Assembly: GCA_913057775.1 (NCBI GenBank)
Contig: CAJXOG010000006.1
Coordinates: forward strand, 1-64,000
Source of the DNA: an uncultured Fodinibius sp.
Lineage (GTDB): Bacteria > Bacteroidota > Rhodothermia > Balneolales > Balneolaceae
DNA: 64,000 bases
Direction of reading: 5' to 3'
The notes beneath the pieces were generated by a model that saw nothing but the letters and a program-made list of their open reading frames with translations, had not been told where the DNA came from and searched no databases. The translations under genes were made by a program, and so were the position numbers. Positions 801-16,200 of the stretch are shown in pieces (the stretch's first letter is position 1; every line of letters starts with the position of its first letter).

Positions 801-819
801 TTTATGCATTAGAAAGGCA

Positions 820-1150
820 ACTCTTACCTCACCTTTTCTATGACCTGCTGGAAAGGCTGGTGGACACCTGCTTTTTATTAATTTTTTACTCTTCTCACCT
901 CCTCATTTACCGTGATGGTAACAGTTCTTCGGTCAATTGGACATTAAATTGTTGTCCAGGCGTTTATCTGAGACTACTTCCCGGGGGAAGCGTCTATGGA
1001 CTTATGTGGCTTAGCAATTTAGGGCCGGGTGGCTAACCGGACGAGAATCTCAGCTCGTTACTGCCGGATTACGAGTTAATTAGAGCCTACCCGCCCAAGC
1101 TCATCACGGGCAAATCGGCGGTCAAAAGAGTTGATTCATAAATAGATACT
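820..1150 (-). ncRNA. Candidate seekRNA/bridge RNA of the IS1111-type element
   Basis: Region downstream of the transposase, where IS1111-group elements encode their guide RNA. Read on the minus strand it contains ATTAACTCGT (complement of 1071-1080), identical to the left flank of the insertion at 792-800 plus one base. It then has GTCCG (complement of 1038-1042), complementary to the rejoined CGGAC of the right flank. Both segments include the CG at the junction. The two guides are separated by a 5-bp hairpin (ACGAG/CTCGT) and enclosed by an interrupted GGCT-TAA/TTAGCC stem. CGTTTAT at 961-967 matches the element's own left end plus the junction CG, a possible donor guide. The RNA ends are not determined. 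Confidence 0.6.
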
Positions 1151-1173
1151 TAAAATTGGTTAGGGTTATAGGG

Positions 1174-2188
1174 CTAGCCATTTTTCCACAGTGCCCACAT
1201 GGCCCCGATGATCTTGCGTTGGGTATTCAGCCGGGCGTTGCGCTTGCTGGCTGACCGGCAGCAACTGGCCCGCCAGAATCGTTTTACCTCATTATCCTCC
1301 GTCGTATTCAGTGCTCCAAGCCACGCTCGGTGGCTCACGGCCTTCAATTCGGAGTATCCGCGCTTGTCCAACCGCTTGGGACCGACCGCCTGCCCTGCTA
1401 GAGCCATAGCTGGTTACCGCCAGCTGACAAAACTTATAGAGCTGGCTCCGCCGGCGGAACCGATGGGGATCTTCAATAAATCCCGAATACAGATGGGACC
1501 CCACCGGACCTACGCCCGGAATCTTTTGAAATTCTCCGATCTCCCAATAGCTGTTCCCTTGCCGGCGGATATCCCTGAATATTTCCAGGGATTGGCTGTG
1601 ATGGTAGCGAATAAATCCAAGCTTTTGTTGGGCCAACCCCTGATGAGCCTCCGAGTCGATCTGCCGGATCCATTGGTCGGCCCGTTTGAAGCTAAACCGA
1701 CTCTGTCCGGTCGGGATACGCACGCCTATGTGTCGCAGCCAGCTGATCAGTCGTTGAATCCCCGAGGCCTTGGCCTGACGTTGTCGCAGAAACATTTTAA
1801 TCCGGGACTTAAAAACGTGCCGGGCTTCCATCGGTTGCCACCAGACCGACTTGTATTCGCCCAACCGCAGCAGCCGCGCCAGCTTGTGGGCATCGGTGCG
1901 GTCATTTTTATTCCCACTTCCGTGAATAAGGGCATTTTCACCGGGATCACAAATAACCAGCTTCCCGACCCACGGAGCCAATGCGTTGGCTATCCATCGG
2001 GCATGGGTACCTTGTTCAAGGATAATATGAAGCTGCCCGCGGGGATAGCTGCGAGCCCAGCTAATGAGCCGGTCGGCCCGGGTCGGAACCTTTTGCTGGC
2101 CAACCGGACTACCTTGCCCGTTAATTGATTGAATGACGGTATTGGTTGCATGAATATCCAAACCTGCGTAGACTGTCGTTGCATTCAT
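1174..2188 (-). pseudogene. IS110-family (DEDD) transposase, frameshifted near the C-terminus
   Basis: The N-terminal frame starts at ATG 2188 and shows the RuvC-like DEDD pattern: GLDIHATN, EQGTHARW, and DRTDAHKLARLL. The Transposase_20 helix-hairpin region reads IPGVGPVGSHLYSGFIEDP. Reading in this frame runs on to 1292 with unrelated sequence. The true C-terminal part (KRLDKRGYSELKAVSHRAW and onwards) is in another frame and ends at 1174. The switch lies near 1380-1405, around the predicted catalytic-serine region (TSYGSS). The total span is one base longer than a multiple of three, so a single-base insertion or sequencing error would explain it. As written, the element is probably not autonomous. 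Confidence 0.8.
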
Positions 2189-2268
2189 AAGAGGACCTCC
2201 TGGTGGGTTGATCGTGGCGGTAAACTGCTATCAATCTACAGGTGTCCTCTTTCTAATGCATAATACCG

Positions 2269-3327: not shown

Positions 3328-3472
3328 GCCCGATAACCCGCGCGTTTATTAGACTTCAAGCGGACAGGCCTTGCCAATTCTCTGTGGCCCTTGGTTTTAA
3401 AATTCATCTTTCGTTAGTTGCAAAATTAATAGAATTGCGTGTACCGGTTATGCGCCAGAACATTATACCGCT
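3328..3472 (+). other. attC site 2
   Basis: R'' TAACCCGCGC lies at 3334-3343, L' TTATGCGC at 3448-3455, and the R' end ATTATACCGC at 3462-3471. The last of these deviates from the usual GTTRRRY by having A first. The interior has the array-typical order: CAAGCGGACAGGCC, a GC-containing spacer, TTTCGTTAGTTGCAA, then CGTGTACCGG. Length about 140 bp. Confidence 0.75.
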
Positions 3473-3733: not shown

Positions 3734-3873
3734 CAGCGGTATAACCCGCGCTTCAAGTGGACACGCCTCGCTCTCCTACGCTTCAAAACCAAAGCTTCGG
3801 TGAGCAGGCCAATGCCACTTTTTGGCTTTTTAGCTTTCCGTTCATTATTTAATAAATCAACATTCATTCGTGC
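3734..3873 (+). other. attC site 3, left part (interrupted by a second IS110-family element)
   Basis: R'' TAACCCGCGC at 3742-3751 is followed by TTCAAGTGGACACGCCTCGC, an internal hairpin-forming GC-rich stretch and CATTCATTCGTGC. The sequence then changes to the second insertion sequence. Comparison with the CGTGCACC of attC6 and the CTGCACCTTATGCG of attC1 indicates that CGTGC was originally joined to ACCTTATGCG, now at 5153. Confidence 0.75.
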
Positions 3874-3891
3874 GCGTATTCTAAGACTAAG

Positions 3892-4907
3892 TCAAGCTAT
3901 TTTTGTAGTCTTGTGCTCATATAATTTCACATAAGGGGTCCCACGATTAATGACAGCAAAGACCCGATAAAGTAGTTTACACACCACGGCATTTTTCACG
4001 CTCTTCGGATGTTTGCCTTCCCCACATTTTTGGTTGTAATAGTCCCTTAGCTCTGGATCATACTGGATGGCCGAATGTACGCCATTGGGCAGCAGTGTCT
4101 TTAGTCGTACACAACGCCATTCGCTGACCCGATCGGGGTTCTTTATTTTGCCGGATTGGTTAGGAAATGGAGCACTGCCCACAAAACAGGCCAGTTGCCG
4201 AGCATTATCAAACCGGGTAAACCCTTCGGTATATACTAGCAGCCATCCGGCAATTACGGGTCCGATACCTGGAATGCTAATTAGCAGCTCGTATTGGCCT
4301 ACGGCATTGTTATAGCGGCGAAGCAAGAGCTTAATCTTCCGATCAACCAACTTCAGTTGCTCGGTCAATTGATCGCGGGAGGCTTGCATCTGATCGTTTA
4401 TTTCGCCCAGATCTGCTACCTCGCTGGTAAGGATATTGGCTTTGATGCCATTGGTTAACCCTGTTCGCATTTTTATTAGCTTCTCCCGCCACAGCAACCA
4501 CCTACGTAGCTCAAGCAACGCTTTTGAAGGAAGTCTGCTAGGCTGCAGGCGATCCCGGAAGCGCCAGACGTATTCTGCAAGACGCTCCGCATCAATAAGG
4601 TCAGATTCCCCCCCCGGCGGATACCTAACGAAAGCTGAACCTGGGCGGCCGAAACCATCACATAACAAATCCCGACCTGCTCTAATATAGTGGCCAACAA
4701 TAATCCATAAGGGCCCGTATGCTCAAAACAAACGATGAGCTCATCCAGGCAGATCTTTTCTCGTTTCCATCGGCCAATCATTTTGTTGATCCCGTTTGGG
4801 GTGTTCCCGGCCTGGTTGGTTGCGATTTCCGTGTTTTGGGCGTCGGTCAGCTGCCAATCTAATCGCTGTTTAGAGATGTCAATACCTATATAATAGCTGG
4901 CTTCCAT
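3892..4907 (-). pseudogene. IS110-family transposase, split at a G8 run
   Basis: The N-terminal frame (start 4907) gives YIGIDISKQRLDW and CFEHTGPYGLLL. The C-terminal frame gives SDLIDAERLAEYVW, completing the DEDD catalytic set. It continues with the Transposase_20 helix-hairpin-helix (SIPGIGPVIAGWLL) and the putative catalytic serine NQSGK. The two frames meet at eight consecutive C on the plus strand (4608-4615, G8 in the gene). The full span is two bases over a multiple of three, so one extra G or a -1 slip would restore a protein of about 338 residues. Slippage, mutation and sequencing error cannot be separated here. Confidence 0.85.
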
Positions 4908-4929
4908 GAGATTTTCTCCTATATTTATA

Positions 4930-5150
4930 AGTGGATAAATGCCGCCCGCTGGATGTGACCAGCCACTATTACCTTTACTGGCTCCCTTGGAGCTTACATT
5001 CTAACTAGTGCCTTCTGGTCTGGAACCCTGCCGGGGACTCATACGCACGCTAGTTCTAAAGCTAGCAACTTATTTAGTTCACCCCGGCAGGTCCAGTAGC
5101 GGTTGATACCACCAACATAATCAGTTATTTAATTGAGAAGTAATCTAAAG
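4930..5150 (-). ncRNA. Candidate IS110 bridge RNA with attC-matching target loop
   Basis: Non-coding region upstream of the transposase. A perfect 10-bp stem (CCTGCCGGGG 5027-5036 with CCCCGGCAGG 5082-5091) encloses a 45-base loop with an internal hairpin GCTAG/CTAGC (5049-5053, 5062-5066). In plus-strand terms the loop has GCACG (5045-5049), the reverse complement of the left flank CGTGC (3869-3873). It also has GCAACTTAT (5065-5073), matching the right flank GCACCTTAT at 8 of 9 positions. Both include the GC core. This is the two-guide geometry described for IS110 bridge RNAs. A second inverted repeat (GCTCCCTTGGAGC, 4981-4993) may belong to the donor part. Confidence 0.6.
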
Positions 5151-5152
5151 GC

Positions 5153-5177
5153 ACCTTATGCGCTGGGCCGTTAGCCA
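5153..5177 (+). other. attC site 3, right end
   Basis: Short right arm left after the insertion: ACCTTATGCGCTGGGCCGTT, with L' TTATGCGC at 5156-5163 and R' GTTAGCC at 5170-5176. The first bases of the following cassette, GTTAGCCATA, match TATTGCTAAC at 11075-11084 (9 of 10 in reverse complement). This suggests that the next 5.9 kb behaves as one cassette. Confidence 0.75.
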
Positions 5178-15957: not shown

Positions 15958-16059
15958 GAAATAGCTATAAGTTTTTATATCACATTCCGGCGATGATAAC
16001 AATAAGTTCAAACCACAGAATAACCACTATTATCTTTAAAAAGACCGTATGGCTTATAT

Positions 16060-16200
16060 TTTATCTAGTGCCTGTTTTAAGTTTGAAATCTGTCGTAAAC
16101 TATTACGCATTTGATCCCGGCAGTTCCCTTTACACTTGATAGAACCAAAATAATCAGTTATTTACTCAGAATTAGCCTACAGCCACCTGATTTGTAAAGT
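16060..16200 (-). mobile_element. Relic of an IS110-type end with bridge-RNA region
   Basis: The order CTAGTGCC (16066), CCCGGCAG (16116), TTGATAGAACCA (16138) and AATAATCAGTTATTTA (16149) parallels the non-coding end of the intact IS110-group element. There the same blocks are CTAGTGCC at 5005, CCCCGGCAG at 5082, TTGATACCACCA at 5103 and CATAATCAGTTATTTA at 5115. Only about 120 bp remain and no transposase is left. The sequence following it (GCCACCTGATTTGTAAAG) may be a worn attC right arm. Together with the relic at 16.7 kb it brackets one gene. Confidence 0.5.

Follow-up and report, generated by a model that had tools for sequence, protein, structure and literature searches.

Near the start of a stretch of 64,000 nucleotides from an uncultured Fodinibius sp. 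of the Balneolaceae (contig CAJXOG010000006.1 of assembly GCA_913057775.1, positions 1 to 64,000; hereafter the window) lies a 1279-bp insertion sequence (IS) of the IS110 group, which we call element B (3874–5152, minus strand), inserted in one arm of an integron attC site. We find that the non-coding region upstream of its transposase gene very probably encodes a bridge RNA, or seekRNA, that guides the element to the arms of attC. All seven full-length copies of the B subfamily that we compared are located in attC arms, and the letters of their left guides follow the flanks at which the copies are inserted.

The RNA occupies positions 4957–5095 on the minus strand, upstream of the transposase start at 4907, and consists of a target-binding loop followed by a donor-binding loop. 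The target-binding loop is closed by a perfect 10-bp inverted repeat (5' arm 5082–5091, 3' arm 5027–5036, both minus strand), which encloses a 45-nt loop with an internal hairpin, GCTAG/CTAGC, between two guides. An initial annotation, made from the letters of the window without database searches, had described this stem and hairpin exactly, and its matches of 5 of 5 (GCACG/CGTGC) and 8 of 9 letters between loop and flanks are real on the plus strand, where the loop reads GCACG (5045–5049) and GCAACTTAT (5065–5073) and the flanks read ...CGTGC / element / GCACCTTAT... Its proposal that the loop is the target loop of a bridge RNA is borne out by fold and covariation, although element and RNA are both read on the minus strand. 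The donor-binding loop (4957–5020, minus strand) holds a left donor guide TTAGAAT (4998–5004) and a right donor guide TAAAGG (4972–4977), which were recognised from their sequence, their invariance in the alignment and compensatory changes in the stem; by inspection they match B's own ends, TTAGAATAC-GC and GC-CTTTAG, the right donor guide being weak in one relative (L008). The folding energy of the 139-nt RNA is -54.7 kcal/mol, whereas shuffled sequences give -39.2 +/- 3.8 (z-score -4.07; 0 of 200 shuffles as stable). The structure is conserved in an alignment of 8 copies, in which 88% of the cells are paired and both partners have changed in 7 pairs. None of 500 shuffles attained its covariation score, nor did any of the slid controls, which lay well below it. 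A covariance model of the RNA (R1) finds more copies, and a scan of the window against Rfam gave no match. Elsewhere in the window, on the minus strand at 16018–16128, there is a weak match to the covariance model (32.7 bits), which is probably an ancient, geneless remnant.

The strongest points in favour of a guide function are the concerted changes of guide and flank (GGT, GCT, CGG or CCC) within one column of the left target guide. In B this guide, ATAAGTTGC (5065–5073, minus strand), matches the left target ATAAGGTGC at 8 of 9 positions, and in the relatives the same alignment column follows the flank; the right target guide CGTGC (5045–5049, minus strand) is the complement of the flank GCACG, which in B is displaced by 2 nt relative to the crossover core. 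The copies compared were B, L005/L020 from Fodinibius roseus, L006, L007, L008, L019 and, from a sister genus, L092, and the six relatives share 68–83% nucleotide identity with one another. When genome contigs were scanned with the joined protein of B, Fodinibius roseus was the sole source of matches, in the same copy as on contig G011:C35, and a phylum-wide search of 394 genomes yielded one more copy of the subfamily. Four copies occupy the right arm of attC (B, L005, L007 and L092, with targets ATAAGGTGC, ATAAGCTGC and ATAACGGGC) and three the left arm (L006, L008 and L019, with targets ATAACCCGC and, in one case, ATAACCAGC), and the left guides follow the target variants ATAAG(G/C)TGC, ATAACCCGC and ATAACGGGC.

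Over the seven copies the left guide agrees with its own left flank at 61 of 63 positions (9 of 9 in L005, L006, L007, L008 and L092, 8 of 9 in B and L019). The initial annotation had staked its proposal on the loop tracking the flanks in close relatives, and it does: outside the core the left guides agree with the flanks at 47 of 49 positions, where permutations average 37, and 12 of 5040 reassignments of flanks to copies do as well, a count that overstates independence because the copies are kin. The third target variant, ATAACGGGC, was met in L092, a copy from another genus found after the register had been fixed, and is matched there at 9 of 9 positions. Three relic RNAs match their own flanks at 9 of 9, 8 of 9 and 8 of 9, two further matches of the RNA model (L169, and L170 at window 16018–16128) being too degenerate for inclusion in the guide test, and the right guides of the seven copies agree at 27 of 35 positions in strict register. 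On the transposase tree the right-arm copy L007 clusters with the left-arm copies at 99%, its exact place having 65% support, and the number of switches between arms is not fixed by the tree. Compared with B and L006, L007 thus has a transposase that groups with the left-arm copies, yet a target loop that resembles B's; this discord hints at an exchange of loops between lineages, to the extent that the limited tree support allows.

The site hit by B, the third of three attC sites within the first 5.2 kb of the window, can be rebuilt from its two parts. The left part (3742–3873, plus strand) runs from the left arm TAACCCGCG at 3742 through ...CATTCGTGC and is recognised by motif and as a homologue of attC sites that are intact elsewhere in the genus; the right part (5151–5173, plus strand) is the arm interrupted by the element, GCACCTTATGCGCTGGGCCGTTA. 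Joining the flanks of B with one GC kept gives an empty site with the right arm CGTGCGCACCTTATGCGC, as in the intact sites of L136 and L137; it is identical to that of intact attC sites in another genome of the genus (G002) and in B's own genome. The identification as attC rests on the paired arms TAACC.GC... and ...TTATGCGC...GTTA, on these intact homologues and on an integron integrase in the same genome, a bona fide IntI (G000:C16:27245-28186; 444.5 bits against a cut-off of 265); the pattern of the attC right arm has 236 matches in 12 genomes of the genus, against 1 in the reversed control.

The ends of B were set by aligning relatives from different attC sites, among which GCCTTTAGATT and TTAGAATACGC are invariant. 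The family ends are GC-CTTTAGATT and TTAGAATAC-GC, and because they were compared among relatives at different places the core dinucleotide can be given as GC, at 5151–5152 on the end upstream of the transposase gene and at 3874–3875 on the other. Non-coding stretches amount to about 245 bp upstream of the gene and only about 20 bp from the gene end to the element end. The gene itself (3892–4907, minus strand) encodes a DEDD transposase, or recombinase, and carries a frameshift at a homopolymer of 8 bases (about 4609–4616), with the domains PF01548 (2e-09) and PF02371 (3.7e-17) spread over two overlapping frames. Most relatives have a single open frame of about 335 codons with both domains intact, and the family profile matches the solved structures of IS621 (8wt6, E 1.4e-22) and ISCro4 (9t56, E 1.1e-23).

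By analogy with IS621 and ISEc21, we infer that the RNA would be expressed and bound by the DEDD recombinase. The target-binding loop would then pair with one attC arm, its left guide reading ATAAG(G/C)TGC or ATAACCCGC into the GC core and its right guide pairing with the other DNA strand of the arm, and the donor-binding loop would pair with the two ends of the element once these are joined, TTAGAATAC-GC-CTTTAG. A circular form of the element would recombine at the GC core, and in Fodinibius roseus the junction of such a circle is predicted to read TTAGAATACGCCTTTAG.

The use of attC by elements of this kind extends beyond B. The first attC site of the window is split in its left arm by element A (802–2263, minus strand), an IS1111-type element, recognised with the help of its relatives, with 15-bp subterminal inverted repeats (802–816/2249–2263) and a non-coding region downstream of its transposase gene that contains ATTAACTCGT, the complement of its flank. 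The initial annotation had taken both elements for members of IS110 and had assigned one to each attC arm; B does belong to the IS110 group, A is of the IS1111 type, and the two do stand in the left arm of attC1 and the right arm of attC3, but the arms are not divided between them because the B subfamily uses both. A survey of all PF01548 loci in 12 genomes of the genus (n=28), placed by motif positions and family alignments, located 25 inside attC and 2 outside it, one locus being too degenerate to place; where a contig ends, the placement of some of the 25 relies on a single flank. They comprise the IS110-type families B (6 loci), C (4) and D (3), with the non-coding region upstream, and the IS1111-type families A (4), F (7) and G (1), with the region downstream, and include the third element of B's own genome, a member of the C family (G000:C3). 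The suggestion that RNA-guided recombinases use attC recurrently therefore applies more widely than to the two lineages from which it was drawn, since about six transposase subfamilies share the location.

Guide-like matches appear in several of these families. The C family carries CCCGCGCAT and CCCTTGAAT, matching the left flank and the complement of the right flank over 9 nt each in two copies, and the D family carries ACGACAT and GCGCAATG; taken singly, the right-guide matches of D lie close to the threshold for chance, and they were judged by their position as a pair. In the A family ATTAACTCGT or ATTAACGCGT changes in step with the element's own flank, and the order of the matches, left target first in the IS110-type families, is reversed. 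The F family, of the IS1111 type, is classed as located in attC rather than as guide-verified, because in a simple exact-match test its longest matches are mostly not above chance. Taken together, the families suggest that attC has probably been acquired repeatedly and independently by RNA-guided DEDD recombinases, in at least three IS110-type lineages (B, C and D) and about three of the IS1111 type (A, F and G), in different registers and with the B lineage switching arms, possibly through exchange of the target loop.

Several points weigh against a bridge RNA that guides B to attC, and most of them concern the copy in the window, which is the weakest of those compared. Its left guide (8 of 9) has one mismatch near the core and, considered by itself, is matched equally well at 11 of the 6298 other sites with a GC core in the window. 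Its right guide reaches only 3 of 5 in strict register and pairs over 5–6 nt when slid by two bases; the crossover core of B, judged by the ends of the relatives, is the first GC of GCGC, and GCACG stands two bases past it because the site of B has GCGC where that of L007 has GC. A reading of this guide as a match of 5 of 5 was lowered to 3 of 5 in register when the relatives placed the crossover there. The transposase frame of B is broken, and with guides that fit worse than those of its relatives the copy is probably dead and no longer active. The seven copies, moreover, are related, and the permutation counts are not counts of independent events. In the C family, the right target guide CGCCCCAGTCAG of L013 / L160 (G004:C67) mismatches the right flank, unlike in its relatives; possibly this guide changed after insertion.

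It is improbable that B is an ordinary member of the described IS1111-attC group with nothing to set it apart. Insertion in attC is known for the IS1111-group elements ISPa21, ISKpn4, ISPst6 and ISPa25, the seekRNAs of the last three matching attC (PMC11187229, PMC11616780). Element A, with its subterminal repeats and downstream non-coding region, fits that group, whereas the structured non-coding region of B lies upstream of the gene, with none of comparable length downstream, its guides follow the IS110-type order, and its ends, GCCTTTAGATTAC and TCTTAGAATACGC, show on inspection no long inverted pair of the kind found in the group (subterminal repeats of about 11–13 bp). There is similarly little chance that what is recognised is the folded attC hairpin or a protein bound to attC, the likeness of loop and flank being a by-product, for instance of an attC sequence captured long ago. 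attC is an imperfect palindrome, other users of attC, the group IIC-attC introns, are associated with its structure, and with every copy in attC the guide and its target could share a common ancestry in sequence. Such a by-product accords poorly with a guide that follows single-base and triple-base differences between attC sites, and does so precisely in the column that the left guide has in a canonical target-binding loop, with the use of both attC arms, each with matching guides, and with families C and D, which occupy other attC registers and have matching guide pairs of their own. Chance drift in a dead element, which the modest figures and the frameshift of B taken alone would allow, is the least credible reading, and the relatives refute it for the subfamily as a whole: those with open frames match at 9 of 9 positions, and L007 at 12 of 12 over both guides.

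Further observations concern the state and arrangement of these elements. The transposase of A (window 1174–2188, minus strand) is frameshifted near 1390–1400, with its C-terminal part in another frame, and as the gene of B is frameshifted too, both elements of the window look inactive. The second attC site (3334–3465, plus strand), recognised by its left-arm and right-arm motifs, contains no IS; at 3334–3370 it reads TAACCCGCGCGTTTATTAGACTTCAAGCGGACAGG, of which TTTATTAGACT is similar to the left tip of a C-family element, ATTTATTAGACTAC, and it may be the deletion scar of an earlier C-family insertion. Some attC sites of the genus are doubly occupied, with one element in each arm: B and F in G011:C9 (L135, 6424–9180), and C and D in G008:C40 (L142, 2694–4110). 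The latter contig also holds, inside attC, a chimera (L154, 7018–7640) in which the left end and bridge RNA of a B-family element are joined to a C-family right end. The right ends of families A, B, C, D and F carry outward-facing -35 boxes resembling TTGA(C/A/T), as expected if the circle junction makes a promoter for RNA and transposase.

RNA-guided choice of targets by IS110 and IS1111 elements, including natural redirection, was shown in 2024 (PMC11208160, PMC11208158, PMC11187229). B shares with the IS621 and ISEc21 seekRNA systems described there a DEDD recombinase with PF01548 and PF02371, an upstream non-coding RNA with target and donor loops, a core dinucleotide common to flanks and ends (GC in B, CT in IS621), a left-target match placed before the right-target complement, an order reversed in IS1111-type elements (PMC11187229), and natural retargeting among relatives. 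It differs from them in that its predicted target is an integron attC arm and that close relatives alternate between arms. Insertion of IS1111-group elements in attC was reported in 2008–2009 (Tetu and Holmes 2008; Post and Hall 2009; as summarised in PMC11187229 and PMC11616780). With these elements (ISKpn4, ISPst6, ISPa25 and ISPa21) B has in common fixed insertion positions in attC and a guide RNA, predicted in the case of B, that matches it, the resemblance in anatomy being to element A and not to B. Group IIC-attC introns (PMC7923331) are likewise RNA-containing mobile elements associated with attC; they are retroelements with a reverse transcriptase and a ribozyme, and B, with its single DEDD gene in which Pfam finds only transposase domains, has neither. 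In the literature searched, of which our coverage was incomplete, we found no description of an IS110-group element aimed at attC, nor of the Fodinibius case. The mechanism is known, then, and the target is new for the IS110 group; attC targeting by the IS1111 group is established, while its use by the IS110 group, the switching of arms and the accumulation of several lineages on one kind of site appear to be new.

With these results attC targeting, known from the IS1111 group, reaches the IS110 group as well, and the B subfamily offers a natural series of close recombinases whose guides lie a few bases apart and whose sites differ accordingly, as material for the rules of guide pairing and for bridge recombinases with a GC core. 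The concentration of 25 of 28 loci on a target that we estimate at well under 0.1% of the genome (236 right arms of roughly 125 bp) suggests that programmable elements find an attractive niche in a sequence that is repeated, conserved and intergenic. It has been proposed that ISPa21 freezes cassettes by inserting in attC (PMC11616780); an insertion such as that of B splits attC, and the gene cassette should therefore be locked in place.
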